Origin: Prochlorococcus sp. AG-409-L14 | GTDB lineage: Bacteria > Cyanobacteriota > Cyanobacteriia > PCC-6307 > Cyanobiaceae | DNA length: 43,869 bases | Reading direction: 5' to 3' | Assembly (NCBI GenBank): GCA_003215545.1 | Contig: QCKF01000010.1 | Location: forward strand, 1-43,869 | Part shown: positions 7,736 through 38,552 of the stretch, one piece after another | Numbering within the stretch: the first letter of the stretch is position 1 | Layout of the letters: each line of letters opens with the position of its first letter | The notes under the pieces: generated by a model | What the model was told of the DNA's origin: nothing | What the model saw: the letters and a program-made list of their open reading frames with translations, nothing else | Database searches by the model: none | Translations under genes and position numbers: made by a program

Positions 7736-7809
7736 CGGGGCGTGGCGCAGTTTGGTAGCGCGGGTGCTTTGGGAGCACTAGGTCGCAGGTTCGAATCCTG
7801 TCGCCCCGA
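7736..7809 (+). tRNA. tRNA-Pro (UGG anticodon)
   Basis: The acceptor stem CGGGGCG pairs with CGCCCCG before discriminator A. The D arm has GCGC on both sides, the anticodon arm GGTGC-TTTGGGA-GCACT has loop anticodon TGG, and the T arm GCAGG-TTCGAAT-CCTGT is intact. No CCA is encoded. Its 3' 45 bases recur at 22.6, 26.8 and 31.4 kb, which identifies it as the integration target. Partial copies elsewhere lack the 5' half and are not genes. Confidence 0.97.
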
Positions 7810-7818
7810 CTGGCTTTT
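7765..7818 (+). repeat. att site: 3' half of tRNA-Pro plus 9 bases
   Basis: Identical over 54 bases to 22600-22653; 45 of these bases also occur at 26793-26837 and 31368-31412. The segment runs from the anticodon stem through the acceptor end, as expected for a tyrosine recombinase attachment core in a tRNA gene. Confidence 0.9.
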
Positions 7819-7839
7819 TGGTGATCTTGAATTGGGAAT

Positions 7840-7862
7840 GGGCCCTCATTGGGCCCTCCTGA
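7840..7862 (+). repeat. GGGCCCTC pair, possible recombinase arm sites (left end)
   Basis: GGGCCCTC occurs at 7840 and GGGCCCTCCTGA at 7851, just inside the left att copy. The same pair, also ending CCTGA, lies at 22455-22477 just inside the right end. Matching repeats at both ends suggest arm-type binding sites for recombinase or excisionase; this role is an inference. Confidence 0.55.
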
Positions 7863-7899
7863 ACTTAAAGACCTCAGCGTTGGTGGGCTTTTGTGCCTT

Positions 7900-8817
7900 C
7901 TAAGGCTTCCTGTTATCTGCTGTTTCTCCAGACAAGAGCGTTTTCAAATAACCACGGAAGCCCAACTGTTGGGTCTGCGGTTCTTCGATGACCTTTTCTT
8001 CGGTTTGTGGATGAAGAGCTTGTGAATATTGCTCGGCATAAGCGCAGTTCTTACAGCTTTCATTGGGTGCTGGAATCTCACGTTGATTCATCAAGGCGAT
8101 CATCCTGTCCACCTCACTTCCTATCCAGCTGCTATCCCATTGGTAAGGGACTAAAGCCTCCTCAAAGTGCATGGCCTTATTGAAATCTTCCTTGCTTCGA
8201 TCGGCATTACAGACCAGGAAGTAAGCCGTTGGATGAACAGCAAAACCCATGCCTGACAGCAAGTAGGCATAGAAGTCCATCTGGGTCAGATAACCCTCGT
8301 GATAGGGGTCTTCTAGGTACTCAACAGGATCAACGCTTCTGTTCTTGGCTTGAGATTTGTAGTCAACAATGATCAGTTCTTTGGTGTGGGTGTCTTGCCA
8401 GATGTCATCGATGCCACCACCTAAAACAATATTGGTGTCCTTATGTCTGAGCTTCAATCCACCGTGTAGAGAGTTTCTCCAGGTATCCATTTCTTCGTGC
8501 TTAAACGGCACAACATGATCCAATCCATAAGCACTAAATAGACGATGGGGGACTTGAGCTTCCCTGCATTGATCAAACTCTTTCTTTAGGAGTAGGTCAG
8601 TCGTTTCATTGAGGGTCCACCCAGGAGTGCCAGGAGGATCTAGTCCTCTAACGCGATCGAGATAGAAACACCTTGGACAAGTCAGAAAGTCAGAGAACTT
8701 ACTTCTACTGATCTTGAAATCAGTTGCTTGGTTAGGCGTATAGATCGACGTAGACCTGGTGCGATGCCCAGGTGCCTTAACGGGTATTTTTTTGCTGTTC
8801 CGTTTGAGGTCAATCAT
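7900..8817 (-). CDS. RecB/Cas4-like PD-(D/E)XK nuclease
   Basis: 305 residues with a RecB-type nuclease core: GGIDDIW (Asp137), IIVDYKS (Asp152, Lys154) and a downstream QMDFYAYLL (Gln179, Tyr183). Four cysteines in a Cas4/AddB-like layout, CPRC (47-50) and CKNC (255-258), could hold an iron-sulfur cluster that ties N- and C-terminal parts together. The family cuts DNA ends. It is the last gene of a leftward operon, three bases after the BRCT protein gene. A remnant of its first 18 or so codons lies at 35692-35760. There is no CRISPR array nearby, so a Cas role is not supported. Confidence 0.82.
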   Translation of the reverse strand: MIDLKRNSKKIPVKAPGHRTRSTSIYTPNQATDFKISRSKFSDFLTCPRCFYLDRVRGLDPPGTPGWTLNETTDLLLKKEFDQCREAQVPHRLFSAYGLDHVVPFKHEEMDTWRNSLHGGLKLRHKDTNIVLGGGIDDIWQDTHTKELIIVDYKSQAKNRSVDPVEYLEDPYHEGYLTQMDFYAYLLSGMGFAVHPTAYFLVCNADRSKEDFNKAMHFEEALVPYQWDSSWIGSEVDRMIALMNQREIPAPNESCKNCAYAEQYSQALHPQTEEKVIEEPQTQQLGFRGYLKTLLSGETADNRKP

Positions 8818-8820
8818 TGG

Positions 8821-12099
<3,279 letters not shown>

Positions 12100-12492
12100 T
12101 CATGCTTCTTTCTTCTTAGAAGCCACCTCAGCTTCAAGGGTGAAAGTCACATTCTGATCAGGACTGAAGCGATCCACCAGTGTTTGAAGTTCTTCTTTCA
12201 TCTCGGCTTCAGAGGTGGGTTCGAGTGACTCTTGAACCAAGGCTTCTTTCCAAGCTCGATCAATGAGTTTCTCTAGGGCTGCAGCTTTGATTCGTGCCAC
12301 ACCGATCTGCTGAAGAATGACTTGTTTGGGGACTTTGCCTGGACGGAACCCTGGAAGTCGGATGGAGCCACCTAAACGCGATAAAGCCTCGTCATAACTG
12401 GACTTACAACGTGCAGCAGGAACTTCGATTTCCACTGAGATGCGGTTCTCAGGAAGCTCCGTGACTTTGACTTTGAGTTCAGTTTTGGTCAT
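12100..12492 (-). CDS. Stand-alone trigger factor ribosome-binding domain
   Basis: 130 residues that align with the N-terminal domain of trigger factor, including the ribosome-docking signature GFRPGKVP at residues 48-55. Full trigger factor is about 430-480 aa with PPIase and chaperone arms; these are absent, and the frame ends cleanly with a Lys-rich tail before the next gene, so it looks like a designed short form rather than a recent truncation. The start overlaps the previous gene by 4 bases (ATGA). Likely acts at ribosomal protein L23 near the exit tunnel; why a mobile element carries it is unknown. Confidence 0.85.
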   Translation of the reverse strand: MTKTELKVKVTELPENRISVEIEVPAARCKSSYDEALSRLGGSIRLPGFRPGKVPKQVILQQIGVARIKAAALEKLIDRAWKEALVQESLEPTSEAEMKEELQTLVDRFSPDQNVTFTLEAEVASKKKEA

Positions 12493-12773
12493 GAATTAAG
12501 CCACGTAAAAAACATGCAATCGTCATAGGTAATTCCAAAATGATCACAGGTAGCCTCGTCTCTCTCTTCATCTTCGAGATCATATATTTCATCAGGAATA
12601 TCTTTCCCATCAATAAAGATTGTTAGGGCAGGTCCCGCATCTTTCGAATATGACGGGTCGTCGTCGTCGTCTTGAATCTCCCATGACAACTCAGTTTTTT
12701 CCAGTTCTTTCTTCAAGCTTTTGTGGTCGCTGAAAGTTTCAATTGAAAGACCAGATTTTTTGATGCTTGTCAT
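12489..12773 (-). CDS. Small acidic protein of the 'DxP...CxHxG' family
   Basis: 94 residues, very acidic in the middle (Asp run at 37-40). Its second half, IFIDGKDIPDEIYD, then ATCDHFGITYDD, shares a pattern with the products at 15849-16091, 16150-16515 and 20948-21166: a beta strand, Asp/Asn, Val/Ile-Pro, an acidic stretch, then Cys-x-His-aromatic-Gly. Four members in one element suggest a real domain. Coupled by a 4-base overlap to the trigger factor domain gene. The function is unknown. Confidence 0.65.
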   Translation of the reverse strand: MTSIKKSGLSIETFSDHKSLKKELEKTELSWEIQDDDDDPSYSKDAGPALTIFIDGKDIPDEIYDLEDEERDEATCDHFGITYDDCMFFTWLNS

Positions 12774-12776
12774 TAT

Positions 12777-13184
12777 TTACCCTTCACCCCAGCTGCCTGT
12801 TAGTAGACAGCCTTCTGCATGAAATGCTTCAGGAGGCATACCATTTGCTTTCATATTGTCATCGTCTGTTTCCTCTCTAATTACAATGCCTCGATTATCA
12901 ACTACTTCTGCATCTTGGATTGCAATTGTATAACGCTTCCATCTATATCCAGCATCATAATCTTCTTGATAATTTTCCATAATTTTACCTTCTTCATCTC
13001 TGTAATCGTCCCAATCAATTTCCTCCTCACCACAACCATATTTGTCTTCATGCTCCTGTGTAAACCAAAGTTCACCGCCATGAATTGTATCTAACTTTAC
13101 CCATTCATTCTTTCCTTTTTCTAATTGAATATAGCCTTCTTCTTCTGGGTTGAAATCTGGCGAATCTTCTAATTCCTCAGTCAT
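12777..13184 (-). CDS. Acidic hypothetical protein with an IHGG motif
   Basis: 135 residues, rich in Asp, Glu and Tyr. The segment IHGGELWFTQE (about residues 34-44) resembles the HGG-plus-aromatic segments of the BRCT protein tail and of 13597-14187, hinting at a shared fold or partner. It overlaps the preceding nuclease gene by 4 bases and the next gene follows 3 bases later, so it is an operon member. No enzyme motif is seen. Confidence 0.65.
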   Translation of the reverse strand: MTEELEDSPDFNPEEEGYIQLEKGKNEWVKLDTIHGGELWFTQEHEDKYGCGEEEIDWDDYRDEEGKIMENYQEDYDAGYRWKRYTIAIQDAEVVDNRGIVIREETDDDNMKANGMPPEAFHAEGCLLTGSWGEG

Positions 13185-13567
13185 TTAATTGACCATTTAC
13201 ATTGATGCGCATACTTTTTGTAGACACTCGCGAAGCTTTTATCAACCAATCGTTCTTGAATATTCACTCCATCCTTAGAGAGTTCAGCCACTGTTCTGCC
13301 ATATCTATCCTTCGTAATCCGTCTGATTGAGACCTCTTCTCCAGCAACTAAGCCATTGAGGTAGTCCCTGGCGGCTTTAGCTGGTATGGGATCAGCTCTT
13401 TTTCCTCGTAGCTCTGGGGTATCAATACAAGCCAGTCTGATCTTCTCTCCTTCAGTACTGGTACAGGTATCACCGTCGTAGCATCGATCAATGGTGATGG
13501 TGGTTTGAGCTAAGGCTGGTGGTACCAGAACTAAGACGAGAACCAGGAGTAGATCATGGGGTTTCAT
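13181..13567 (-). CDS. Secreted thermonuclease (SNase-like)
   Basis: 128 residues with a signal peptide to about residue 20 (LLLVLVLVLVPPALA). The staphylococcal nuclease motifs are complete: YDGDT near 30-34, RLACIDTPE (Arg44, Asp49, Glu52) and YGR (Arg91), equivalent to the Arg35/Glu43/Arg87 triad. These enzymes degrade DNA and RNA outside the cytoplasm with calcium. It is coupled to the downstream acidic gene by a 4-base overlap. A secreted nuclease inside a mobile-element operon is notable: it could digest foreign DNA or supply nutrients. Confidence 0.88.
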   Translation of the reverse strand: MKPHDLLLVLVLVLVPPALAQTTITIDRCYDGDTCTSTEGEKIRLACIDTPELRGKRADPIPAKAARDYLNGLVAGEEVSIRRITKDRYGRTVAELSKDGVNIQERLVDKSFASVYKKYAHQCKWSIK

Positions 13568-13596
13568 CTCAATTTGGAAGAGGTTTGGGACTTCAA

Positions 13597-14187
13597 TTAG
13601 CCATCACCCCATCTTGAGATTCCTCCTACATCAAAAATATCTTCATACCTCACTCCTTGAGCTTCAACCTCAAATTTTTCATCTATAAGTCCTGTTATTC
13701 CATATTCCGCTGCGATAAGTGAACTGATTTCTTTTCTCATCATTGGTTCTGGCAAGTTCTCCAAAAATTCCTTGATGTTTTCATCATCATTATCAAAACT
13801 ACTGTCTTCCTTTAAGGACTCTTTGTTGATGGGGCCCCAATCTTTGATGTCATAGAAATCAGGATCAGATTTGATTATTCGTTCAGGAACATAGACAAAA
13901 CCACCATGAATCTCGTCTGTGTAAACCAAATGATCATGATTATTTTCTGTGAAAACAAAGTAAGAAAGTGGAATGTCTGGGAAAAAAGAATTCGATGGTT
14001 CTTCTTTTTTTTCTTCTATGGCTTTGGCTAAAGCCTCTTTATAAAACTCCGTAGATAAGAACCCACAAAGCTTGGCGAGTTCATCCTCTGACCTATCTGA
14101 AAGTTGAGAAGCAATATCAGGCAGAACTCCTTCTATGCCCTCTGCCCATTCATGAAGTTTCTCTTCCTGCTCAGATGAATCAGTCAT
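13597..14187 (-). CDS. Protein with the same C-terminal domain as the BRCT protein
   Basis: 196 residues. The segment HGGFVYVPERIIKSDPDFYD and the terminal GVRYEDIFDVGGISRW match the tail of the 1091-aa BRCT protein ([11 protein letters not shown] and [16 protein letters not shown]), and both end in a Gly-Asp/Asp-Gly dipeptide. The N-terminal half is helical and acidic. The gene leads the tightly packed part of the leftward operon. I do not recognise the family; the shared tail suggests a shared binding partner. Confidence 0.65.
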   Translation of the reverse strand: MTDSSEQEEKLHEWAEGIEGVLPDIASQLSDRSEDELAKLCGFLSTEFYKEALAKAIEEKKEEPSNSFFPDIPLSYFVFTENNHDHLVYTDEIHGGFVYVPERIIKSDPDFYDIKDWGPINKESLKEDSSFDNDDENIKEFLENLPEPMMRKEISSLIAAEYGITGLIDEKFEVEAQGVRYEDIFDVGGISRWGDG

Positions 14188-14232
14188 TGACCTTTTTCTT
14201 CCATTCTCTTTCTAGCTGTGATACGCATCCTT

Positions 14233-14364
14233 TCAATAATGCGGAGGTTTTGACTCCTCAACAGGGAAGTAAGCACGATCTTCTTCGTCTGGATCTTGCT
14301 CCCTGAGGCTTTCTTCTACCTCGTCATACGAGTCGTCATCAAAGTTCCGTTCAGACTTGGTCAT
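14233..14364 (-). CDS. Small acidic protein C of a duplicated three-gene set
   Basis: 43 residues beginning MTKSERNFDDDSYDEVEE and ending EESKPPHY. A copy at 38120-38251 differs mostly by conservative changes, which supports coding. Its ATG overlaps the stop of gene B (ATGA). It is highly charged and soluble; the function is unknown. Confidence 0.65.
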   Translation of the reverse strand: MTKSERNFDDDSYDEVEESLREQDPDEEDRAYFPVEESKPPHY

Positions 14365-14462
14365 GACTTGGCTTCTTTTCTGCCTTTCCAAATCAGGAGC
14401 AGTGGCAAGCCAACGAGCATCAAGCTGCCATCAATTAATAGGTAGGTGTTTAGCATGCTCAT
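14361..14462 (-). CDS. Very small membrane protein B of a duplicated three-gene set
   Basis: 33 residues starting MSMLNTYLLIDGSLMLVG, with one hydrophobic helix (to LPLLLIW) and a basic tail KGRKEAKS. It overlaps gene A upstream and gene C downstream by 4 bases each, so all three are probably translated together. The counterpart at 38.3 kb has a one-base deletion and is broken. Confidence 0.55.
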   Translation of the reverse strand: MSMLNTYLLIDGSLMLVGLPLLLIWKGRKEAKS

Positions 14463-14605
14463 TCCTCAACCCTCACATCGACTCTCTCTATCCGCTGCTC
14501 ATCTTTAAGCAGCATCTGTTTGACCGCATAGGCAGCAACACCAAAGGTCACCAAGACACCAATGGTCTGAATGAAATCGATGTAGGTGGCAGTGAGGTGG
14601 TTCAT
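14459..14605 (-). CDS. Small membrane protein A of a duplicated three-gene set
   Basis: 48 residues starting MNHLTATYIDFIQTIGVL. A hydrophobic helix (IGVLVTFGVAAYAV) is followed by a charged coiled segment (LLKDEQRIERVDVRVEE). GGAAAC sits just before the ATG. A homologous gene lies at 38345-38491. A single-span membrane protein with a cytoplasmic or lumenal helical tail is likely; the function is unknown. Confidence 0.6.
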   Translation of the reverse strand: MNHLTATYIDFIQTIGVLVTFGVAAYAVKQMLLKDEQRIERVDVRVEE

Positions 14606-14627
14606 GTTTCCTTTCTAGCTGATCTAG

Positions 14628-15170
14628 CTACCCCCTCTTACCTTTTAGGTCATCCCATATTTCGTCTTCCGTTGCGTCCCTAGTAAGAGGTGGGTCTGAA
14701 GAAAATAACGTTTTGCGGAAGGCTTTCTGCTCTTCGGTCATGGTGAAATCATAGAAATCCATGATTTTGGGAGATACCCCCCAAAAAGCAAGCGTGAACT
14801 CCTCTCCGGAATAGGGACTTTCTTCCATAACTTTTTCAGCCTTTTCATCTAATGGCTCTACTTCGAAAAGGGAAAGCATGTACTTCCCTATCTCGCTTCC
14901 AGCAGGGAAATCTTCATCAATAAGGTATACACCCAGCTCATCAGCTAAATCCTGGGTGAAAAATTTTTCAAATACTTCTTTCTCGAGATACATCGCACTC
15001 ATCGAATGATTATCATCAACCCTAAATTTCCCTCCTTTGTATTCCATAACTCGATTTTCTTCTTCTATATCTGAATCCCAGTCCTCAAAAGCAGCCTCTT
15101 CTTCTATAAAAGATTCCTTTGAGAGATCAAGCTCTTCAAGACGCTTGCGCCAGTCACCTTCAAGTCCCAT
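14628..15170 (-). CDS. Acidic hypothetical protein, 180 aa
   Basis: Starts MGLEGDWRKRLEELDLSKE and is Glu/Asp-rich throughout. It includes a 'MEYKGGKFRV' segment weakly like the HGG segments of its neighbours and an aromatic block 'LAFWGVSPKIMDFYDF'. No enzyme motif or membrane span is visible. It follows the HTH gene at 15209-15613 on the same strand, 38 bases apart. Confidence 0.6.
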   Translation of the reverse strand: MGLEGDWRKRLEELDLSKESFIEEEAAFEDWDSDIEEENRVMEYKGGKFRVDDNHSMSAMYLEKEVFEKFFTQDLADELGVYLIDEDFPAGSEIGKYMLSLFEVEPLDEKAEKVMEESPYSGEEFTLAFWGVSPKIMDFYDFTMTEEQKAFRKTLFSSDPPLTRDATEDEIWDDLKGKRG

Positions 15171-15208
15171 AGATCCTTCCTTCTTTATCTTTATTGCCTT
15201 CCTTCGTT

Positions 15209-15613
15209 TTAGCTGGAAATATCGATAACTGTTGGGCCTCTCTCTAGGGAAGCAAGTTGCTCTTGAAACACCTCCATCTTTTCTCTTAGGTCCTCATCAG
15301 TGCAGTGTTCCTTGTAGATCTTGAATAACTCAGCGCAAGCACTCACCTTGGCGTAGTCACGAGTTTTCTCTGATAAAGCGACTTTCAATAATGAATCGGC
15401 TACAGCAGGTAGAGCATTAGCGATTTTGCTCATCGCTGTTTGCCTTTGTTCTTTCCGAATGTCTTTGAGGTATTCCTTGCACTCTGGGTAATCCCGATAC
15501 TTCCGAAGGGTCCGGATATGACACCCTGCAGCATCTGCAGATTCTTGCCATGTAGCACCAGAAGCCCGAAGCATCAAAGCAGAAAAAATCTTTGGTGGAA
15601 CCTCAGTTTCCAA
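15209..15613 (-). CDS. HTH protein resembling phage terminase small subunits
   Basis: 134 residues. An N-terminal helix-turn-helix at about 14-42 (GATWQESADAAGCHIRTLRK) is followed by 'YPECKEYLKDIRKEQRQ' and a long helical bundle with 'LPAVADSLLKVAL...DYAKVSACAELFKIYKEH'. This layout, an HTH then repeated helices that end in a charged tail, is that of many phage small terminase proteins, which recognise packaging sites. In phage satellites such a protein redirects packaging. It could also be a plain regulator: a 14 bp palindrome lies upstream in the divergent spacer. Confidence 0.6.
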   Translation of the reverse strand: METEVPPKIFSALMLRASGATWQESADAAGCHIRTLRKYRDYPECKEYLKDIRKEQRQTAMSKIANALPAVADSLLKVALSEKTRDYAKVSACAELFKIYKEHCTDEDLREKMEVFQEQLASLERGPTVIDISS

Positions 15614-15848
15614 TTACAAGGATGTGTAGTAATTAAATAATAGCTTCTCTCTTTAATCGTGTCTCGTTCAATACACTATTGATTGCAGGATTAGATCGTC
15701 AACGATTCAAATAAGGTCCCAGGAAGGTGAAATTGAATTCATAAACCTGCAACACTCCCCCCTATAAACAAACGTTTGTTCTATAACTGATGACAAGTCC
15801 CTATTAATTGCAGCCACTCCTACACTAAACATTATTGGTCTGATAACT
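15614..15848. promoter_or_regulatory. Divergent control region between two element operons
   Basis: A 235-base spacer between the leftward HTH gene and the rightward gene at 15849. It holds the perfect palindrome AACAAACGTTTGTT at 15767-15780, a likely operator. This is the only divergent gene pair inside the element, so it may be its main switch. Confidence 0.5.
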
Positions 15849-16091
15849 ATGTATCCATCTGCACTTATTATTCACTGCAAAGAATCTTACTTCCAAGAAC
15901 TAATGAATCTCGGATTAGATCCTAATTATGATGACGGTGAATACAATGTAGTTGTTGATGACGTCCCAAATGAAATTTTTAGTGTTGATTATTCAGAAGA
16001 TGAATTTATAGAACCCCACCCCCGAGACGTAGCTATTTGTGAACATTATGGGATTGATATCAACCAAGTTAATTGTATAGAAGAAGTTTGA
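15849..16091 (+). CDS. Small acidic protein of the 'DxP...CxHxG' family
   Basis: 80 residues, MYPSALIIHCKESYF at the start, then NVVVDDVPNEIF and a final VAICEHYGIDINQV. It shares the Val-Pro and Cys-x-His-aromatic-Gly pattern with 12489-12773, 16150-16515 and 20948-21166. It is the only rightward gene in this element apart from the tRNA, and it faces 16150-16515, another member, tail to tail. The function is unknown; antitoxin or regulator are possibilities without direct support. Confidence 0.65.
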   Translation: MYPSALIIHCKESYFQELMNLGLDPNYDDGEYNVVVDDVPNEIFSVDYSEDEFIEPHPRDVAICEHYGIDINQVNCIEEV

Positions 16092-16149
16092 ATAATGCAG
16101 TTGCTTATTAAGGGCCGCAAAGCCTAAATCCGTTGAATAGGGTCGCCGC

Positions 16150-16515
16150 CTAATAGAAATCGGGTGCGTATTCATCATCGGAGTCATCTTCCTCATCGTC
16201 GTCCATACCATCAACTTTGATCTTCACAATCAGAGAGCGCCACAATTCCTCGTTAAGTCCGAAATGCTTGCAGAAATTCTCTAGCCGCATGCAATCTTCG
16301 TCAGTTACAGCCTCGTAGGGCACGTCATTAACGAGCACCGTAACTAACCCCGTTTTCTCTAAGTCCTTTTTACTGACATAAAACTCCTGATCAGCATCAT
16401 TGAAAATCTCCTCTTCGAGGATCTCAGGCTTGCAAGTAAGCCAAACGTCGTATTTCATTTCCTTATTTAAGTGCCGTAAACCTTCTTTGGCTTTATTAGC
16501 ACCAGGAAATCCCAT
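16150..16515 (-). CDS. Member of the 'DxP...CxHxG' family, 121 aa
   Basis: The middle reads VTVLVNDVPYEAVTD, then LENFCKHFGLNEELW, matching the shared pattern of the four element proteins. The end is Asp-rich. The start region overlaps 16467-16643 in another frame by 49 bases, so either the true start is later or the two frames were once one gene. The function is unknown. Confidence 0.6.
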   Translation of the reverse strand: MGFPGANKAKEGLRHLNKEMKYDVWLTCKPEILEEEIFNDADQEFYVSKKDLEKTGLVTVLVNDVPYEAVTDEDCMRLENFCKHFGLNEELWRSLIVKIKVDGMDDDEEDDSDDEYAPDFY

Positions 16516-16643
16516 GGCCCCAAGCCTTCGGGTTCTGGTTTCTCTGAACTCTGTGTAATCACCCTCAATGTTGGGGGTGAAATCTGTGGGGCAATCTTGT
16601 CCAGCTTGTTTTGAAGGCGTTTGAACTCGTTAGTAAGGCTCAT
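16467..16643 (-). CDS. Possible 58-aa protein upstream of 16150-16515
   Basis: Begins MSLTNEFKRLQNKLDKIAP, a clear amphipathic helix, and continues to PEPEGLGPWDFLVLIKPKK. It runs into the 16150-16515 gene in a different frame. A single-base shift would join its first 45 or so residues to that protein, so this may be the 5' half of a frameshifted gene or a programmed overlap. Confidence 0.4.
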   Translation of the reverse strand: MSLTNEFKRLQNKLDKIAPQISPPTLRVITQSSEKPEPEGLGPWDFLVLIKPKKVYGT

Positions 16644-16699
16644 TACATCAACTGTTTCCTACAGAAAAACCGTACTTTTCAAACACTCAAAAGTCCATG

Positions 16700-16937
16700 T
16701 AGGACATTGAAGGTCCCATGCGAGAAGTATTGCACTGCAAAGGATCAGAAGAAACATAGGACACTAGGACAGGGGTCGTTATAAATGCGAAAAGCGGAAC
16801 GGTAGGGCCTCTCTCTCTAAGTACATGGAATAAAGAGAGAAAAAGGATCTATTAGTCCTAGTAGTGCTCTAAGAGGAGGTGGCCCAACAGTTTTCAGGTA
16901 GGACAAAGGGAGTCCTACATCAGTCCTACATGTCCTA
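16700..16937. repeat. Cluster of eight GTCCTA/TAGGAC repeats, candidate replication origin
   Basis: TAGGAC occurs at 16700, 16757, 16765 and 16899, and GTCCTA at 16855, 16912, 16923 and 16932. Chance would give well under one in 238 bases over both strands. The last three are spaced 9-11 bases apart. The cluster directly follows the primase-helicase gene in a stretch with no other gene, as iterons of a replication origin would. Confidence 0.6.
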
Positions 16938-19343
16938 TACATCAGCGAACCAAGGGTGGAGAGCCTTATAGAACAGCCCACCATGTTTACCTGTAGTTCG
17001 TTTACCTAAACCAGCCTCAACAAGTTGAGCAAAGACTTCTTCTTTTAGTTCAGGTGTTAATTCTGTTTTCTCCTTACCGCTCAAGCTTTGAGAGATTTCA
17101 GTCCAAGCCATACCTTGTTCATTTTTAGCTTTAGCTGCAAGTTCATGTAATCGTTTCATCCATTTTGTTTTTGTGGAACGAGAGCCATCAGTTTGAAAAT
17201 TCATGGCCCAACTATCTAGATAGTCGACGAGTTCGATAGCAGCTTCTATGCGATCCAGACCAATGAATTCTTCAGGTGGAACAGCATGGAGTGTATGTAG
17301 TACATGGAGTAACCCTGCAACTCTGCCCACCTTTCCGGCTGACTTATTGAGTATTGCAGCGTGAAAAGGGCTAGCTTTTACCGCTTGCATTTGCTTTTGA
17401 TATTCGTACTCCGAGAATCGCTTTAAAGCCTGATCATCTAATTGATATTCCCAAGCGAAAGAGCTTCTAATTTGCTTAGCAATGACTTGAAGAGTTCTCT
17501 TAGCTCCTTCGAATTGTTCTTTTTCTATTGGGCTGATTTTCGTAGGCAACTTAGTGGGATTAGGAGGCAGATGAGAGAACAGGAATCGAGCCCATTTACC
17601 ATTGTGATCTTTACCTTTCTGAAGCTCTGCAAGGACTTCGGGCTGAATACCTCCATAGATGGAGAAGTGGGTTCTATCGCAGAATCGCTCGTGTTTTTTA
17701 TTGGCACGAACAACCTCAAAGCCACCGCCGTCATAAAGCTCTAGGAGTTGTTCTTCTGCTGAACCTCGCCCCTGGGTGTACTGATTCATTGATTTAAAAA
17801 CGCCTGCTAATTCATCAGCACAAAGCAAGAGGCCCAACCGTTTTTCTTCTTGAGTGATCAGTGCACTTTGTAGACCTTCTTCTGTCGAGTTCTTGATAGT
17901 TAGAAGAGGCCTAGGAGGTTTTGGCCCTCGATCTTCTTCGGGCTGCTTATTCCAAACCGCTAGGTCTTCCCCCCATTTCAGTTTCATTTCTGCGAAGACT
18001 TCAGAGAGGGGGAAATCAATTAGAAGCTTTTGAAGAGGTGTTTTCTTTGTACCTGTTTTGCCGCAAGTACAAACGTAGAGATTCAGTGGAGGCTTAAAAC
18101 CAGTAAGAGGTTGGAGATTGACTGAAGACCCCAACTTCAGCAGTGCTGAACATCCCGCCATGTATGTAGTGGCAATCAACGTATCTGGATAGGGCAAGTA
18201 TTTAGTAATTGTTCTAAGAGCTTCGACAATGGACCCAGGAAATAGCTTGTCGAGTGTGATCTTGTGTTCTTTTTTTTGTGGGGCCTCTACTTTTAATTGC
18301 CACCCTCTTTGGCGAGCATTTTCAATAAGAGTTCCGATGGTATTAGTCGGATCAGTGAGTGTTGGAAGCTGCTCAATTGGATCCCAGTTAGCAGAAAACC
18401 ATTGAGCCTCTTCGCAAATCTGGCCAGCCTCAGATTCACCAAAGTAATTCTTCAACCCATAAAGCACACTTATACAAATAGACCTTTCTCCCTCCCCAGT
18501 TTTTTCTCGTTTTGGGATGTACCCCAGCATCTCTACTGCTAATTGATGCTGTTCATCTCTAGAGCGTCTATCAAACCAAGACCTATCTGCAATAGGGCCT
18601 TTCTTGATGAAGCCCTTGGTTGTTCGGACATGGTCAGCTAGTGGAAGACAAACTTGTTCAATTGCCTTGAGCTGGTATCTCACGCCGCTGTAGCTCCGCA
18701 AAGCGCAGATGTTTTTTGTCTTCCCATGGAACCCTCCAGGAATTCGCATGACACGATTTGGATTGCTGAGTCCTTGATCAACTCCAAGATTGGGACATAC
18801 AACTTCAATAGTCTTTGCAATCCTTTTTTGCATCTCTCTGAACTTGTCTGGACTAATGCATTCAGACAAAAGCCAATAGAAATGAACTGACTTTCCACCC
18901 GTCCAAATAGTCATGCTTGGAGGTGGAAGCTCTGCCCTGTGAAGAGCTGAGTATTGAGTATCTGGATCTAATAGACCGCTATCTCCCTCAGTAAAGAGGG
19001 CATTGGCTCCTGAGATGTGAGGGTTACTTGCACCCCATGCTTTTTGGAGTCCTTGCTTGTTTAGGTGCTCTTTTTTAGTTCCCCAGTTTTCGGGTTTAGG
19101 TAGAGCTGGATTAACAACAAGACCAAGGCTGTTACTTGGATATTTCCGCAAAGCCCTCTCGATTTCTGCCTGAGGAATACTGTTTGCTTTACATGGGAAA
19201 TGGATGTTTGGACCAGGTTCAGGAGGGAAGACACTTAGAACAATTTCGTCCTGATCTCGTTGAATTCTTTTGAGAAAATCGGTTGTCTTTGACCAGTCAA
19301 CAAGTCTGTCTTGACGAGCCTTTTTAGGTGGTAGCCCTGTCAT
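16935..19343 (-). CDS. Primase-helicase fusion (AEP-type primase plus DUF3987-like ATPase)
   Basis: 802 residues. The N-terminal half resembles archaeo-eukaryotic-type mobile-element primases: an acidic FTEGDSG (117-123), GGKSVHFYW (149-157, His154) and VDQGLSNPNRVMRIPG-like motif with Asp189 and Arg197. The C-terminal half is a helicase-like ATPase with Walker A GKTGTKKT (428-435) and Walker B LLLCADE (505-511), then 'FSIYGGIQPEVL' as in DUF3987 proteins. Such proteins start and unwind replication of plasmids and satellites. It lies next to the GTCCTA cluster and follows the excisionase-like gene. Finding it shows the element can probably replicate outside the chromosome. Confidence 0.85.
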   Translation of the reverse strand: MTGLPPKKARQDRLVDWSKTTDFLKRIQRDQDEIVLSVFPPEPGPNIHFPCKANSIPQAEIERALRKYPSNSLGLVVNPALPKPENWGTKKEHLNKQGLQKAWGASNPHISGANALFTEGDSGLLDPDTQYSALHRAELPPPSMTIWTGGKSVHFYWLLSECISPDKFREMQKRIAKTIEVVCPNLGVDQGLSNPNRVMRIPGGFHGKTKNICALRSYSGVRYQLKAIEQVCLPLADHVRTTKGFIKKGPIADRSWFDRRSRDEQHQLAVEMLGYIPKREKTGEGERSICISVLYGLKNYFGESEAGQICEEAQWFSANWDPIEQLPTLTDPTNTIGTLIENARQRGWQLKVEAPQKKEHKITLDKLFPGSIVEALRTITKYLPYPDTLIATTYMAGCSALLKLGSSVNLQPLTGFKPPLNLYVCTCGKTGTKKTPLQKLLIDFPLSEVFAEMKLKWGEDLAVWNKQPEEDRGPKPPRPLLTIKNSTEEGLQSALITQEEKRLGLLLCADELAGVFKSMNQYTQGRGSAEEQLLELYDGGGFEVVRANKKHERFCDRTHFSIYGGIQPEVLAELQKGKDHNGKWARFLFSHLPPNPTKLPTKISPIEKEQFEGAKRTLQVIAKQIRSSFAWEYQLDDQALKRFSEYEYQKQMQAVKASPFHAAILNKSAGKVGRVAGLLHVLHTLHAVPPEEFIGLDRIEAAIELVDYLDSWAMNFQTDGSRSTKTKWMKRLHELAAKAKNEQGMAWTEISQSLSGKEKTELTPELKEEVFAQLVEAGLGKRTTGKHGGLFYKALHPWFADV

Positions 19344-19448
19344 AATGGATATGTGAATAAATGGATTAAGTCGGTTGCCCGCCGGCTTTTTTCATGGCTG
19401 TTTAGGTGCCCTGCTAGTTCAAAGGCATTGAGGGAAAGTCTTCTTCCA

Positions 19449-19673
19449 TCAGCCTTTCCTTTTCTGAGGAGCTTTCCAAGCCAAGAAAACCTTCTCAACT
19501 TCCTCGAGGTTCCAAAAATATTTAGAGGTCTTTCCATCACCTTTTCGGTGATAGTGATCCCCATATTCGAAATACCCCTCCTTCCTTTTTTGGAGAAGCG
19601 TGAGGGGATTTATTCCCAATGCATATGCACATTGAGAAGTACCGATCCATTGGATCTTTGTTTTTGTTGGCAT
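19449..19673 (-). CDS. Excisionase/AlpA-like DNA-binding protein
   Basis: 74 residues with the order IGTSQCAYALGINPLTLLQ (winged-helix recognition region), a 'YFEYGDHYHRKGDG' wing and 'YFWNLEEVEKVF'. This is the layout of MerR/AlpA-type excisionase proteins. It lies between the primase and a small gene, all leftward. It probably bends DNA at the att arms or controls the recombinase. The overlapping frame at 19340-19564 is a shadow. Confidence 0.65.
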   Translation of the reverse strand: MPTKTKIQWIGTSQCAYALGINPLTLLQKRKEGYFEYGDHYHRKGDGKTSKYFWNLEEVEKVFLAWKAPQKRKG

Positions 19674-19676
19674 GGA

Positions 19677-19889
19677 TTAAGCCAGATCTAAACCTTTAGC
19701 TCTTGCCACTTCTTGAACAGATTTCGGCCAGTTGCCTAACTCCCAGACAATTCCATCTCGCCCCTTAGTAATGAGGTCAAGATCCTTGTCTATTTGGGAT
19801 GCAGACTGCTCAGAGTCATAAGGAACGGCAACTGATGTGCCATTCACTTGTGATCGATTGGCATAGCGATTCTGCTTTTTGCGTGGCAT
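19677..19889 (-). CDS. Small hypothetical protein, 70 aa
   Basis: Starts MPRKKQNRYANRSQ, basic at first, then 'KGRDGIVWELGNWPKSVQEV'. The stop is three bases before the excisionase-like gene, so they share an operon. The family is unknown. The basic start suggests nucleic acid contact, an inference. Confidence 0.55.
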   Translation of the reverse strand: MPRKKQNRYANRSQVNGTSVAVPYDSEQSASQIDKDLDLITKGRDGIVWELGNWPKSVQEVARAKGLDLA

Positions 19890-20095
19890 GAAACCAAAAG
19901 CATTTACAGAATCCGCTCATCAATCCACCAACGCCAAATCCACTTTTCTACTGGCTTCTTTGGGGGGCAGTCCGACATTCCCGAAGGAAGTTGATTCAGC
20001 AAGCAGATGCTTGGGCACTCAACTGGATTAACTAAAACTATAGAGAACTTTTTAGTTTTTACAAGTGGTGGTAACACCATTCATGGTTTAGTTAT
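19890..20095. promoter_or_regulatory. Spacer upstream of the replication operon with an inverted repeat
   Basis: This 206-base spacer probably holds the promoter of the leftward replication genes. AAAACTA and TAGTTTT (20034-20059) form an inverted repeat just past the HNH gene, which could terminate that gene's transcript. Confidence 0.4.
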
Positions 20096-20920
20096 TCAAT
20101 AAATCAGATACAGCTCGCCTTCATAGCCAAGATCCCTCATCATTTCCTCCCAAGCAGCTTCATCTTCTGGCGTGTATTGATCTTGTTTAGTCAAATTTTC
20201 TATAGCCAACATTGGTTGCAAGTTCCGCCAGTTATAACAAACAAACCTTTGACGATTTCTCATTGATAACTTGAAGGTTGCACAAGGTCTTATGTGATCT
20301 ATGTGCCAACCCCAGTGAGTGAAATTATCCCAAGACATATTTTCGTCAAACTGATTCTCTATATGAGTAACTAAAAAGTCAGGGTCACAACCTACAAGCT
20401 CCATCGTTGTCTCTGATTGCTTACCCCCCTGAAGAGTTCTACGAATTGATTGACTTAAGCGATCCCGCAATCTAATTCGAGGTTCGTTTTCCCTCCTTTC
20501 TTGTTGGTAGATATTTTTATGTGCTCGATTTCTTTTGGCAGACTTTCTATTACTTTCTCGATGCTTTTCTATATTCTTCTCTCTCCAAGCCTTCTTCGTC
20601 TGATATGCCTCTTCTATAAGCTTTGGTGATCTTTTTAAATAAAACATTTGTCTTTTCGCAGTGCACTTTATACATGTACTGCTTAGACCATCTGAGAGTA
20701 CTAAGGCTATATAAAACTCACTTACTGGAAGTACTTTCTTACATTCATTACACCTTTTCTCTGTCTTTGTAATTGCTTCTTCAGGTGTTCGTTGTTTGAG
20801 CAAGTCCCTCCTTTCTTTTGCTGCTTTTTTTACACATGCTTTACAGCGTGCCTGTCTGGCATAGAAGTCATCTATTGGGAGTTCTTTTAAGCAGGTCAAG
20901 CATGTTTTAGTTTCTGCCAT
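20096..20920 (-). CDS. HNH endonuclease with two N-terminal zinc-binding CxxC pairs
   Basis: 274 residues. Cysteines 7/10/26/29 and 57/60/83/86 form two similar zinc knuckles, each followed by 'LP...FY' (KELPIDDFYA and KVLPVSEFYI). A basic helical region follows, then the HNH core: HIDHIRP (206-212), NWRNLQP (230-236) and Asn242. Phage and mobile-element relatives nick or cut DNA. The double zinc module suggests sequence recognition. It lies between the recombinase and replication genes, so it may act in element transfer, replication or exclusion. Confidence 0.82.
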   Translation of the reverse strand: MAETKTCLTCLKELPIDDFYARQARCKACVKKAAKERRDLLKQRTPEEAITKTEKRCNECKKVLPVSEFYIALVLSDGLSSTCIKCTAKRQMFYLKRSPKLIEEAYQTKKAWREKNIEKHRESNRKSAKRNRAHKNIYQQERRENEPRIRLRDRLSQSIRRTLQGGKQSETTMELVGCDPDFLVTHIENQFDENMSWDNFTHWGWHIDHIRPCATFKLSMRNRQRFVCYNWRNLQPMLAIENLTKQDQYTPEDEAAWEEMMRDLGYEGELYLIY

Positions 20921-20947
20921 TACTTACTTTCCCTGTAGTGATGCTAA

Positions 20948-21166
20948 TTAATCAATTTCCCAGTTAATGACATCCTCTTTATTGAAGCCCCAATGGTCAC
21001 AAATTTCTTTTACAGGATCGGAATATGTTCCATCAACGTAGTCAGTAGGCACATCATCAATAGCCACTTCCAACTTATCTTCTTTCAATACATAAAAAAG
21101 ATCTTTTTCCTTCACATAATCCAGCGCTGATGGCTTCATCTCAAGGAGAACAGTAGGTTTAGTCAT
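20948..21166 (-). CDS. Small acidic protein of the 'DxP...CxHxG' family
   Basis: 72 residues ending LEVAIDDVPTDYVDG, then KEICDHWGFNKEDVINWEID. This is the cleanest match to the pattern shared with three other element proteins. Its ATG overlaps the stop of recombinase 2 by 4 bases, so it is made with the recombinase and could modulate it; the overlap is seen, the role is inferred. Confidence 0.7.
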   Translation of the reverse strand: MTKPTVLLEMKPSALDYVKEKDLFYVLKEDKLEVAIDDVPTDYVDGTYSDPVKEICDHWGFNKEDVINWEID

Positions 21167-22434
21167 TTGGTTAAATCCCTAAATTTGATGGCTCTTTCCA
21201 TTGAGCTTTCAAGCATCGACTCGCTGCTCCATTGAGCATAGGCAGCGTTATGAACTTGGACGGTGTGGCCCATAAATGCAGCCATTTCCGTATCGCTCAA
21301 CTTATAGATCTGATGACCTCGCTTGCTGTACGAATGCCTAAAGCTGTAGGGCACCACACCTTGTTCCGCCTTCAGCTTTTTCCAGACCTCGTTAAATCGC
21401 AGATAGTTTTTAAAAGCATCACCAGCCCCTGCTTTCATTCGAGGGAGGGGGTCCTTCTGTTTGATCCTTTGAATTAGGTTCCATTTCTCCTCCCACTCAG
21501 GATGAAGTGCCCAAAGCCTTCTTGGCTTGGAGATTCCTCCACCTGCTTTCTTGCAGTAAGTGCAGAACAAATATTCCTTGCCGTTCTTTCTGATCTCTAA
21601 ATAGTCGTAACTAACTTCGATAGGCCTCAACCCATAAACGATTGCCAGCTTGATCGCTAAATCCCACTCCATCGCGCGATCTCTTAGTCGGTGTTTCTTC
21701 TCGGCTTTGTCTAAATCGATCGGTAGTGAGTTGATTAGTTCGAGTAAGTCCTGATCTTCTATAGCCACAGTCGGATTAGAAGTCTCTTGTTGCTTCTTGG
21801 CCGACTTACGTCCCACATATTCTCCGAGAGCATTTTTGGGAGGTGGTGTCCAGTTATCAGCAGGCAAGAAATGACCTGAGGCTCTAGAAGTTGCCCATCT
21901 CAAAAAAGCTGCTGTGTGTTGAATTCTGATCTGCCTACTTCGAGAACCAGGCTCATACTTCTTGCCAATCTCTATAAGCAGGTCATTGGCATTGGCTGCT
22001 GCAACCTCCTTCAACCTGCGAAACGTTTTCCCATATTCGATTTGCCATGTTTTTGGAGAGACATCACCACTGACTTTGACTTTGTAGTTTTCATAGCTCT
22101 CCCACGCAGTAATTAAAAGTTTTGGGTTAGGTCTTCTTGCGGCCCTAGGGGTTTTAGATCGTGTTTGCTTGACCCTTTCAACTGCCTCTTCTACTGAAAC
22201 CTTTTGGTGTATGACTAACTCGTGGATTTCTTCTACTGATTCTCGAATGCCTGCTGCAGATGCTTTGCACCATGGCAAACCAAGATTGCGATAGATCCTT
22301 GTTCCATCGTCTAAGCGAATTCGCAGATTCGTGGTTCCTCCTTTGTCTTTGACCTGCCAACTAGTACCCAAAGCATCGCGAATAAAGGTCCTCAGGCTGG
22401 ATACCCACGGTTCAGTTTCTGATCTTGCTTTCAT
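21163..22434 (-). CDS. Tyrosine recombinase (integrase) 2
   Basis: 423 residues, homologous to recombinase 1 over its length. Catalytic features: Arg270 in YGLRPIEV, Lys-bearing hairpin (KKAGGGISKPRR), YSFRH (363-367, Arg366), Gly389-His390 and nucleophile Tyr399 in NAAYAQW. As in recombinase 1, Tyr replaces the first His of the HxxR box. The gene starts 166 bases from the right att copy and reads away from it. It is the likely integrase of the 7.8-22.65 kb element, with the tRNA-Pro 3' half as its target. Confidence 0.92.
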   Translation of the reverse strand: MKARSETEPWVSSLRTFIRDALGTSWQVKDKGGTTNLRIRLDDGTRIYRNLGLPWCKASAAGIRESVEEIHELVIHQKVSVEEAVERVKQTRSKTPRAARRPNPKLLITAWESYENYKVKVSGDVSPKTWQIEYGKTFRRLKEVAAANANDLLIEIGKKYEPGSRSRQIRIQHTAAFLRWATSRASGHFLPADNWTPPPKNALGEYVGRKSAKKQQETSNPTVAIEDQDLLELINSLPIDLDKAEKKHRLRDRAMEWDLAIKLAIVYGLRPIEVSYDYLEIRKNGKEYLFCTYCKKAGGGISKPRRLWALHPEWEEKWNLIQRIKQKDPLPRMKAGAGDAFKNYLRFNEVWKKLKAEQGVVPYSFRHSYSKRGHQIYKLSDTEMAAFMGHTVQVHNAAYAQWSSESMLESSMERAIKFRDLTK

Positions 22435-22454
22435 CGAGGAGAGGATTGAATCGT

Positions 22455-22477
22455 GGGCCCTCCTGGGGCCCTCCTGA
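22455..22477 (+). repeat. GGGCCCTCCTG pair, possible recombinase arm sites (right end)
   Basis: GGGCCCTCCTG at 22455 and GGGCCCTCCTGA at 22466 are direct repeats 11 bases apart, just upstream of recombinase 2. They match the pair at 7840-7862 inside the other end of the element. Confidence 0.55.
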
Positions 22478-22505
22478 CTAAATAGATTTAAATAGATCTA
22501 TTTAG
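22478..22505. promoter_or_regulatory. Inverted repeat upstream of recombinase 2
   Basis: CTAAATAGAT and ATCTATTTAG form a perfect 10-base inverted repeat with an 8-base spacer, 44 bases before the recombinase start. It could be an operator or an arm site. Confidence 0.5.
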
Positions 22506-22599
22506 TTTACACAAGATTGAGTCTCAAATGACTATTCTGTACTAGATTTTGACTAGTGGCTGACTGGAATTTACTGCTTGTCTCATTTTTACAACCCAA

Positions 22600-22653
22600 T
22601 GCTTTGGGAGCACTAGGTCGCAGGTTCGAATCCTGTCGCCCCGACTGGCTTTT
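22600..22653 (+). repeat. att site: right end of the 7.8-22.65 kb element
   Basis: 54 bases identical to 7765-7818 inside tRNA-Pro. The upstream bases differ from the tRNA 5' half, so it is a displaced 3' fragment. The element between the two copies is about 14.8 kb. Confidence 0.9.
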
Positions 22654-23802: not shown

Positions 23803-23838
23803 CACTTGTTTTACTTGTCCCTTCTTTTTTGTCTAAAA

Positions 23839-24765
23839 GTGATCGATATTCCAAAGTTTCATGAGTTCATGACTCCTTTATTAGAAGTTTTAAGGGAGAA
23901 AGGGGAGATGCATGGACATGATGCTATTTCTGCTGTTGTGAATAAGGTTGGGCTAAAAGAAGATCAACTAGCAATTACCCAAGAAAGTAATGGTCGCTCT
24001 GTTGCAAAAGAAAGAATTAAATGGGCAGCTTCCTATTTGAAAAAAGCTTCAGCAATTGTTCAGCCTCAAAGAGGGGTTTTTGATTTAGGACCAAATGCCA
24101 ATAAGTTGCTCAATCTTGATCGAAAAATAACCATTGCCGACTTAAAAGAGATAGAAGAATGGAAGGTATATGAAGCAGAAAGAGCCTTACAAGCATCAGA
24201 CAGTCAAATAAAAGACGACATTAATAACCTTGGTGATGACACACCAGAAGATTTGATTGACAAGGGCATCAAGGTGCTTAACTCTCAACTTGTTGATGAG
24301 CTACTTGAACAAGTCAAAGCAATTTCCCCTGAAGCTTTTGAAGGTTTAGTTTTAGAAGTTTTGGCAAAAATGGGTTATGGAGGTGGAGATGCCAGACAAA
24401 TTCAAGGTGTTCCCCGTGGTCCTGATGGTGGTATCGATGGCAAGATCAATGAAGACAAGCTTGGACTTGATCAGATTTATATCCAAGCCAAGCGTTACTC
24501 AGATAATTCTGTAGGCCGACCAAAAATTCAAAGCTTTGTTGGTGCAATGAATGGGGGTGGATGTAAAAAAGGTGTTTTTGTCACAAGCAGCACCTTTACT
24601 TCCGAAGCAAAGACTTATGCAGAGGGATTACGCGATCTTCGCTTGGTTCTCATTGATGGAGTTGCACTTGCAAAACTAATGATTGAGCACTGTGTAGGTG
24701 TTCAAGTTAAAGAGACCATTCAGATTGCAAAGATCGATCAAGACTTCTTTGGCGGAGACGAATGA
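23839..24765 (+). CDS. mrr: Mrr-type restriction endonuclease (type IV-like)
   Basis: Two domains: an N-terminal winged-helix Mrr_N domain (IPKFHEFMTPLLEVLREKGE to VQPQRGVFDLG) and a C-terminal Mrr catalytic domain with GPDGGIDG (Asp211 counted from the 23806 ATG) and IYIQAKRY (Gln227, Lys229), followed by 'KGVFVTSSTFTSEAK' as in the family. Relatives cut methylated foreign DNA. The GTG at 23839 fits the usual Mrr start; the ATG at 23806 adds 11 unlike residues. Two tiny genes follow with 4-base overlaps. No modification methylase is present, consistent with a modification-dependent enzyme. Confidence 0.88.
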   Translation: MIDIPKFHEFMTPLLEVLREKGEMHGHDAISAVVNKVGLKEDQLAITQESNGRSVAKERIKWAASYLKKASAIVQPQRGVFDLGPNANKLLNLDRKITIADLKEIEEWKVYEAERALQASDSQIKDDINNLGDDTPEDLIDKGIKVLNSQLVDELLEQVKAISPEAFEGLVLEVLAKMGYGGGDARQIQGVPRGPDGGIDGKINEDKLGLDQIYIQAKRYSDNSVGRPKIQSFVGAMNGGGCKKGVFVTSSTFTSEAKTYAEGLRDLRLVLIDGVALAKLMIEHCVGVQVKETIQIAKIDQDFFGGDE

Positions 24766-26610: not shown

Positions 26611-26837
26611 TCTAGTTTTCCCAAAGCACTAGGTCGCAGGGGGGGGGCGCTCTAGGGGGCGCTAGAAGGTTGAAAGCCCTTTAAATACGTTCTAATTCCT
26701 TGCAATATTGAGTCTCAAATCGATTTACCTGACTTCTAAAGACCCTTTAACAGCAATGGTTCTGAGCAAGTCTCATCTTTTGAGGCCTTGTCCTTTGGGA
26801 GCACTAGGTCGCAGGTTCGAATCCTGTCGCCCCGACT
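26611..26837 (+). repeat. att module: decayed copy, spacer and intact 45 bp att core
   Basis: The core at 26793-26837 equals 45 bases of the tRNA-Pro 3' half. About 170 bases upstream, 26625-26640 keeps 16 bases of another att copy, followed by a left hairpin arm only (26641-26664). The order decayed att, arm, CCCTTTAAATACGTT, a GAGTCTCAAAT box, then core is repeated at 31201-31412. Confidence 0.85.
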
Positions 26838-31200: not shown

Positions 31201-31412
31201 TCTAGTTTTCCAAAGGACTAGGTCGCTCATGGGGAGCTAGGAGATTGCAATCCCTTTAAATACGTTGCAATTTTTGGCAATATTTGAGTCTCATATGACT
31301 GTAGCTATTTTCTAAACCCAAGCCATAGCAATGGTTTTGAGCAAGTCTCATCTTTAAAGACATTGTCCTTTGGGAGCACTAGGTCGCAGGTTCGAATCCT
31401 GTCGCCCCGACT
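31201..31412 (+). repeat. att module: decayed copy, spacer and intact 45 bp att core
   Basis: The core at 31368-31412 equals 45 bases of the tRNA-Pro 3' half. At 31201-31247 there is a decayed att start followed by a left hairpin arm of the GGGGAGCTAG type. The spacer repeats that of 26611-26837, including CCCTTTAAATACGTT and AGCAAGTCTCATCTT. Confidence 0.85.
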
Positions 31413-34981: not shown

Positions 34982-35030
34982 CCCCCTCTACTACAGCAGA
35001 AAATTCTCAAATGCGGCCCTTCAAAAGCAA

Positions 35031-35075
35031 GTAGGGGCGACATAATTCGAATCTGCGACCTAGCACTTCCAAAGC
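35031..35075 (-). repeat. Decayed inverted att copy
   Basis: Read on the minus strand it gives GCTTTGGAAGTGCTAGGTCG, CAGATTCGAAT and TGTCGCCC, matching about 36 of 45 bases of the tRNA-Pro 3' half. It points the other way from all intact att copies. Confidence 0.6.
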
Positions 35076-35369
35076 AAACTAATTAGCCGAAAAAAACTTA
35101 TCGAAAAGTTTTTCTAAACCAACCCAAAAGCTTTCCTAATGCAAATAAGTAGAGAATCTTAAGCGATTAGGCCCTTCAGCGGTTAGGATGATTTGAGCAT
35201 TTATGCCTAGCCCGTGGAATTCAATCCTTTTAAGCCTTTGTTTCAAGCTGGTACTCAGCAAAAGAAAGCTGTCTCTTGGCTTTTTACAGCTTTGGTATCA
35301 GTAAGCCTCTTTTCTTGATTTTTCAAACTCATCACTTTTTCTAGTCAGCGAGAGCACGATCGGAGCAAA

Positions 35370-38079: not shown

Positions 38080-38119
38080 CTTGAGCTCTATTTTGATCTA
38101 CTTTTCATTGTCATGCCTA

Positions 38120-38251
38120 TCAATAATGCGGAGGCTTTGACTCCTCAACAAGGAAGTAAGCACGATCTTCTTCGTCTGGATCTTCCGCCCTGAGGCGTTC
38201 TTCTACCTCGTCATACCAGTCGTCATTAAACTTCCGTTCAGGCTTGGTCAT
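38120..38251 (-). CDS. Small acidic protein C', copy of 14233-14364
   Basis: 43 residues, MTKPERKFNDDWYDEVEERL, ending EESKPPHY. About 34 of 43 residues match the copy at 14.3 kb, and all indels are absent, so selection has kept it. Confidence 0.65.
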   Translation of the reverse strand: MTKPERKFNDDWYDEVEERLRAEDPDEEDRAYFLVEESKPPHY

Positions 38252-38348
38252 GACTTGGCCTCTTCTCTGCCTTTCCTAATCAGAAGCAGTGGCAAACGAA
38301 CCAGCATCAGGCTGCCATCAACCAATAGATAGTGTTGAGCATGCTCAC
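38248..38348 (-). pseudogene. Broken copy of small membrane gene B
   Basis: Relative to 14361-14462 one base is missing near 38325, the frame then stops after a few codons, and the start codon is GTG instead of ATG. Confidence 0.65.
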
Positions 38349-38491
38349 TCTTCAACCCTCACAGCTACTCTCTCTATCCGCTGCTCAACTTTAAGCAGCA
38401 TCTGTTTAACCACACATGCAGCAACACCAAAGATCACCATCACGCCAATGGTCTGAATGAGATCGATGCAGGTAGTAGTGAGTTGGTTCAT
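38345..38491 (-). CDS. Small membrane protein A', copy of 14459-14605
   Basis: 48 residues, MNQLTTTCIDLIQTIGVM, with the same helix and the charged tail QRIERVAVRVEE as gene A. The three-gene block is repeated over about 390 bases at roughly 85% identity. Confidence 0.6.
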   Translation of the reverse strand: MNQLTTTCIDLIQTIGVMVIFGVAACVVKQMLLKVEQRIERVAVRVEE

Positions 38492-38552
38492 GTTCCCTTT
38501 TTAGCCTTTGCTAAACGTCACGGCATGATGATGAGAAGTTCTATATCTTTAA

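Follow-up and report, generated by a model that had tools for sequence, protein, structure and literature searches.

An iteron array 3' of a DUF3987 primase-helicase gene as the probable replication origin of a Prochlorococcus tRNA-Pro element

We found an array of six-base repeats at the 3' end of a primase-helicase gene in an integrative element of Prochlorococcus, within a 43.9-kb stretch of DNA that was analysed as a whole (the window). This array is very probably (about 0.88) the replication origin of the 14.8-kb tRNA-Pro element. The primase-helicase of the element would bind the iterons through a C-terminal winged helix, opposed rings would melt an AT-rich centre, and a PrimPol domain would provide priming.

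Results

Eight repeats surround an AT-rich centre

The initial annotation had reported eight copies of GTCCTA on both strands, against about 0.1 expected by chance. We confirmed that GTCCTA/TAGGAC occurs eight times within 16700-16937, with copies at 16855, 16912, 16923 and 16932 on the plus strand and at 16700, 16757, 16765 and 16899 on the minus strand. The whole window holds 18 copies of the hexamer where 14 are expected, which corresponds to about 0.08 expected in 238 bases, so the earlier figure was correct. None of 150 shuffles of the whole window placed any hexamer at eight copies in 238 bases (shuffle maximum, 6).

In the gene direction of the primase-helicase, with D for TAGGAC and I for GTCCTA, the copies start at D -3, 6, 17, I 30, D 74 and I 164, 172, 229, counted from the first base after the stop codon. 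A ninth copy, TGGGAC with one mismatch (D at 216), stands at the same place as a copy in relatives. The array lies 3' of the gene, beginning inside the stop codon, and not upstream of it, and its iteron sets flank the AT-rich centre on both sides (Table 1). Hairpins at the dyad between blocks III and IV are present in some relatives and weak in the window. A search against Rfam returned no family.

Table 1. Features of the element and its repeat array in the window.
Feature	Position	Strand	Remarks
attL, 3' end of tRNA-Pro (gene 7736-7810)	7764-7811	+	
Iteron 8, block IV	16700-16705	-	
Degenerate copy at block IV position	16713-16718	+	TGGGAC in gene direction; one mismatch
TATTGCACTGCAAAGGATCAG, counterpart of relatives' dyad (GATCCATTGCGCTGCAGTGGATC and similar)	16728-16748		Between blocks III and IV; read by eye
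Iteron 7, block III	16757-16762	-	
Iteron 6, block III	16765-16770	-	
AT-rich, pyrimidine/purine-skewed centre between blocks II and III, candidate melting site	16815-16850		30 percent GC, lowest 30-bp step
Iteron 5, block II	16855-16860	+	Often two copies at block II in relatives
Iteron 4, inverted, closing block I	16899-16904	-	
Iteron 3, block I	16912-16917	+	
Iteron 2, block I	16923-16928	+	
Iteron 1, block I	16932-16937	+	Includes primase stop codon (TAG of TAGGAC)
802-aa primase-helicase: AEP/PrimPol N-terminal part, MCM-like DUF3987 helicase (aa 386-709), C-terminal winged helix	16935-19343	-	Pfam, AlphaFold, Foldseek
C-terminal winged-helix domain (codons 724-794), presumed iteron reader	16962-17174	-	AlphaFold model
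423-aa tyrosine-recombinase-like integrase of the element	21163-22434	-	RHSY...GHT...Y signature read from sequence; adjoins attR
attR, 47-base repeat of tRNA-Pro 3' end	22600-22646	+	

Alternatively, a DNA-binding regulator of the primase operon or of the next gene (16150-16515) could use the repeats as operator sites. Six-base sites paired as palindromes are a typical operator feature, and that gene follows the array on the same strand at a distance of about 185 bp. However, eight to twelve copies over 240 bp together with an AT-rich centre exceed what an operator needs. The array also goes with the helicase gene and its tail, and the natural exchange described below changes array and tail together in two elements that are otherwise collinear. 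We therefore regard an operator as very unlikely.

The neighbouring gene encodes a primase-helicase with a winged-helix tail

The gene beside the repeats had been called the primase-helicase of the element, and domain searches and models bear this out. DUF3987 was detected by Pfam with an E-value of 3.8e-38, and the motifs GKTGTKKT and LLLCADE fit putative Walker A and B motifs of the MCM-like type. In Foldseek the N-terminal part matched the PrimPol domain of cyanophage S-2L (6zp9, TMt 0.81). The helicase part matched MCM helicases, with TM-scores that were low across the full chain. At its C-terminal end (aa 724-794) the AlphaFold model, whose mean pLDDT is 79, shows a winged helix with the order H-H-H-E-E and a pLDDT of about 72-88. 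Thus DUF3987, an AEP primase and a C-terminal winged helix, the domains that define DUF3987 PrimPol-helicases, are all present. Among homologs the N-terminal primase part varies; the helicase and the tail are common to them. The winged-helix tail presumably reads the iterons.

The gene and array lie inside an element of about 14.8 kb (about 7764-22646) that is bounded by tRNA-Pro repeats and carries its own integrase, which was assigned by its signature only, as Pfam and PHROG searches gave no match. No structural phage genes were recognised among the element genes searched. Tycheposons are tRNA-integrated elements with a recombinase found in marine picocyanobacteria, and with its tRNA-Pro att sites and integrase the element is presumably one of them; the relatives point to Cyanobiaceae as its host family.

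The element has an integrase, and the repeats might serve as arm-type sites for it or for an excisionase; arm sites consist of short repeats that occur in either orientation, as in the annotation of P4. However, 4.2 kb separate the array from the integrase, and about 5.7 kb separate it from attR. Furthermore, it goes with the helicase in relatives, and the arrays at L194, L120 and L102, found by the blind search below, go with primase genes. Arm sites are thus extremely improbable.

The layout is conserved and the letters drift

Scans of genomes and viruses with the single protein as query gave no match; an alignment of homologs was needed. Homologs were present in 69 of 300 family genomes (those named are Prochlorococcus, Synechococcus and Cyanobium) and on 35 viral contigs, and relatives are 27-53% identical. 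INPHARED phages gave three weak matches and PLSDB plasmids 41 weak cyanobacterial ones. Two relatives, L037 and L042, are complete prophages that encode a terminase and a portal, L037 also a head protease, and the L087 element has a terminase.

The initial annotation had suggested a comparison of the same site in related elements. In 25 of the 29 viral loci with enough 3' flank we found a repeat cluster starting at the helicase stop codon or directly behind it. The motifs differ in their letters and include TGTTGG, GGTAGG, TGTAGG, TGTGGG, GTAGGGC, GGGGGA and others; TTGCCGA is a further motif among relatives. It is the layout which is conserved in relatives, not the sequence GTCCTA. Most relatives keep the array. 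In the element of the closest homolog, that of Prochlorococcus AG-402-B05 (L068/L078; 52 percent), no array could be recognised within 20 kb, and a search of it for a displaced or degenerate array found none. No array above chance was seen at the distant homologs L014, L023, L024, L026 and L028.

Family arrays begin with three direct copies, followed by a single inverted copy and then one or two more direct copies; behind the AT-rich centre come two or three inverted copies, then a direct copy and inverted ones. The spacing is also similar in most of them. When the strand-specific layout of the window was compared with 18 relatives, 98 sites matched, and random positions gave a mean of 52.7 and a maximum of 94 (0/600 reached the observed value). 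Shuffling the strands gave a mean of 65.1, and 98 was reached in 18 of 600 trials; the order of strands by itself is a weaker signal than the strand-specific layout. At 24 loci with an array the helicase flank always held at least six copies; elsewhere on these contigs 7 of 1096 tiles did. This comparison favours the flank because the loci were chosen for having an array.

The remaining four viral loci, without an array at the flank (L039, L056, L057 and L058), have one of the same layout elsewhere on the contig. These were found by a motif-free layout scan, which made no match in 1.65 Mb of shuffled sequence and marked only arrays on real family contigs; its error rates hold outside tandem repeats only, and it is unspecific in tandem-repeat coding tracts. 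With a fixed layout and drifting letters, origins of uncharacterised phages and satellites should be findable by layout alone.

By eye, two conserved non-iteron dyads in the helicase 3' flank trade places relative to the gene at L034, L040, L048, L051 and L054, as if the whole origin unit had been inverted. Separately, Cyanobium Cruz-8D1 carries two family elements, one with GGGGGA iterons (L071/L079) and one with TTGCCGA (L087), which is what would be expected if shared iterons cause incompatibility.

Protein tail and iterons were exchanged together

The loci L085 (Synechococcus Baikal-G1 MAG) and L087 (Cyanobium Cruz-8D1) are collinear on both sides, with 83 percent DNA identity over 6.2 kb and 3.8 kb. 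Between these flanks about 0.3-0.6 kb is replaced, covering the last ~68 codons and the whole array. The helicases are 97 percent identical and the C-terminal domains 58-60 percent, and the iterons differ (TGTGGGCT vs TTGCCGAT). This natural swap, a single event as far as clean exchanges of tail plus array go, is the strongest evidence suggesting that the tail reads the iterons. The two loci are a ready pair for learning which protein tail reads which repeat.

Across 28 loci, with the motif consensus set by hand, a partial Mantel test gave r=0.20 (p=0.01) for motif against C-terminal domain given helicase, and r=0.11 (p=0.07) for the reverse, motif against helicase given C-terminal domain. The iteron motif tracks the tail more than the helicase. 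The proposal in the initial annotation that iterons beside a replication gene mark a candidate origin is thus supported by an array that lies at the helicase 3' end in most homologs and by a motif that appears to follow the tail.

Another reading is that the array serves partition, incompatibility or packaging and stands beside the primase by chance. Iteron arrays do serve copy-number control and partition as well, and small satellites need packaging sites. However, the swapped cassette couples the array to the C-terminal domain of the helicase, and the layout is common to the full prophages L037 and L042 and to the satellite-like element, which lacks their terminase and portal. We consider such a site highly improbable.

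A blind search finds the layout beside other helicases

We used the exact pattern of three TAGGAC copies from the window as a query, and at least 120 viral loci matched. The layout was present by reading in five of these (L194, L120, L102, L127 and L190). Three of the arrays lie directly 3' of other primase-helicase genes, two of which are of other helicase types: the L194 array follows a Prim-Pol protein with a weak DUF3987, the L120 array follows the Pox_D5/RFX-like C-terminus of a D5-type primase (a type assigned from a 138-aa C-terminal fragment), and the L102 array follows an AAA_25 primase-helicase. No primase was seen on the contig pieces examined for L127 and L190. At L194 and L102 the spacing differs from that of the cyanobacterial arrays. 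Many AGGACC-type layout matches among the loci looked like coding repeats and were set aside. The exact triple repeat of the window occurs in one other of 400 family genomes, there as a perfect 9-bp tandem.

It is possible, at somewhat less than even odds, that the winged-helix tail and the iteron array make up a single cassette of fixed layout that sets specificity and can be exchanged, and that this cassette is found under several unrelated helicases (DUF3987/MCM-like, D5 and RecA-like) in phages and satellites. If so, exchange of the cassette would alter the incompatibility group of an element and leave its replication machinery unchanged.

Discussion

The array and where it lies, the layout common to relatives, the joint exchange of tail and iterons, and the modelled domain folds lead us to infer the following course of replication. 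The element would be excised first. The primase-helicase, encoded just upstream of the array, would then bind the six-base iterons by its C-terminal winged helix, and copies in both orientations beside the AT-rich centre would set two hexameric helicase rings facing each other. The opposed rings would melt the centre, and the fused PrimPol domain would prime synthesis.

By analogy, this would be a P4/PICI-like iteron origin in a DUF3987 replicon. PICI origins lie 3' of rep and have an AT-rich region with an iteron set on each side, and the pri-ori segment is functional in a plasmid assay (PMC6092414). The window resembles the PICI origins of the E. coli EcCICFT073 type and of SaPIs in having iterons directly 3' of primase/rep and a flanked AT-rich centre. 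In the CFT073 element at 1.382 Mb, 11 GGTAGA copies stand 3' of the primase, and their runs follow the order D-I-D-I-D-I that is also seen in the cyanobacterial family; the element encodes a capsid and a head-decoration protein, as described for EcCICFT073 (PMC6092414). As in PICIs, the element has a primase followed by the probable origin, its own integrase (by signature) and att sites at tRNA-Pro; unlike PICIs, its helicase is DUF3987 and MCM-like, and the spacing is out of strict register. PICI regulators (rpr/stl, alpA) and interference genes were not seen among the domain hits, which cover small genes unsystematically.

The P4 alpha protein combines primase, helicase and an origin-binding winged helix in one chain, with a TOPRIM primase (PMC4234260). 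The protein of the window likewise has primase, helicase and winged helix in one chain, but it differs from a P4-like satellite, whose alpha protein has an SF3 helicase, in its AEP-like primase and MCM-like helicase and in having one joined array, where P4 uses another iteron (TGTTCACC) and its ori1 and crr are separated by about 5 kb. The copies are spaced D 10 D 11 D 22 I 43 D 10 D in P4 ori1 and D 9 D 11 D 13 I 44 D in the left half of our array. The register match with ori1 is marginal (P 0.09 for the window, 0.02 for L061); in strict register there was no match with P4 crr and none of significance with the E. coli CFT073 PICI origin. We therefore claim only the order of orientations, which P4 ori1 and crr and the CFT073 PICI share with the cyanobacterial family.

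SaPI Rep and SCCmec Cch2 bind iterons just downstream of their gene by C-terminal domains (PMC7581432). These self-loading helicases are like the window in the short repeats directly downstream of the helicase gene, but belong to other helicase families, and Cch2 has three 5-bp iterons. The PrimPol-PV1 supergroup unites PrimPol, DUF3987 and winged helix in predicted helicases of mobile-element replication (PMC5862659), the same three domains as in the protein of the window. The word iteron is absent from that paper; the origin layout is what we add to these helicases. PICMIs have a DUF3987 primase in their model (PMC10803314). Like them and like tycheposons, the window holds a small tRNA-integrated marine element with a primase, its host being a picocyanobacterium; the domain hits of the element genes searched included neither the alpA nor the fis of PICMIs.

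The principle is thus shared with known systems; the helicase family and hosts differ, and here the tail is seen exchanged with its sites. DUF3987 replicons, whose helicase was until now only predicted, would gain an origin, and one would also be supplied for elements of abundant ocean and lake cyanobacteria. The layout occurs both in cyanobacterial prophages and in a satellite-like element.

Other features of the window

The cargo of the element at 7900-13567 comprises a PD-(D/E)XK nuclease, a 1091-aa BRCT-DUF6891-TPR protein, an SNase-like protein and a 130-aa protein consisting solely of a trigger factor N domain. This set is unusual and is possibly a defence operon. Further copies of the tRNA-Pro att repeat lie at 26793-26837, 31365-31412 and 35028-35076 (inverted, degenerate), and represent several elements or remnants in a tandem stack at one tRNA gene; the next slot between att repeats holds an Mrr-type restriction endonuclease (23806-24765). 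A 391-bp direct repeat, 89 percent identical, is found at 14229-14619 within the element and at 38116-38505 far outside it, and a 551-aa protein with RTX calcium-binding repeats is encoded at 39138-40793.
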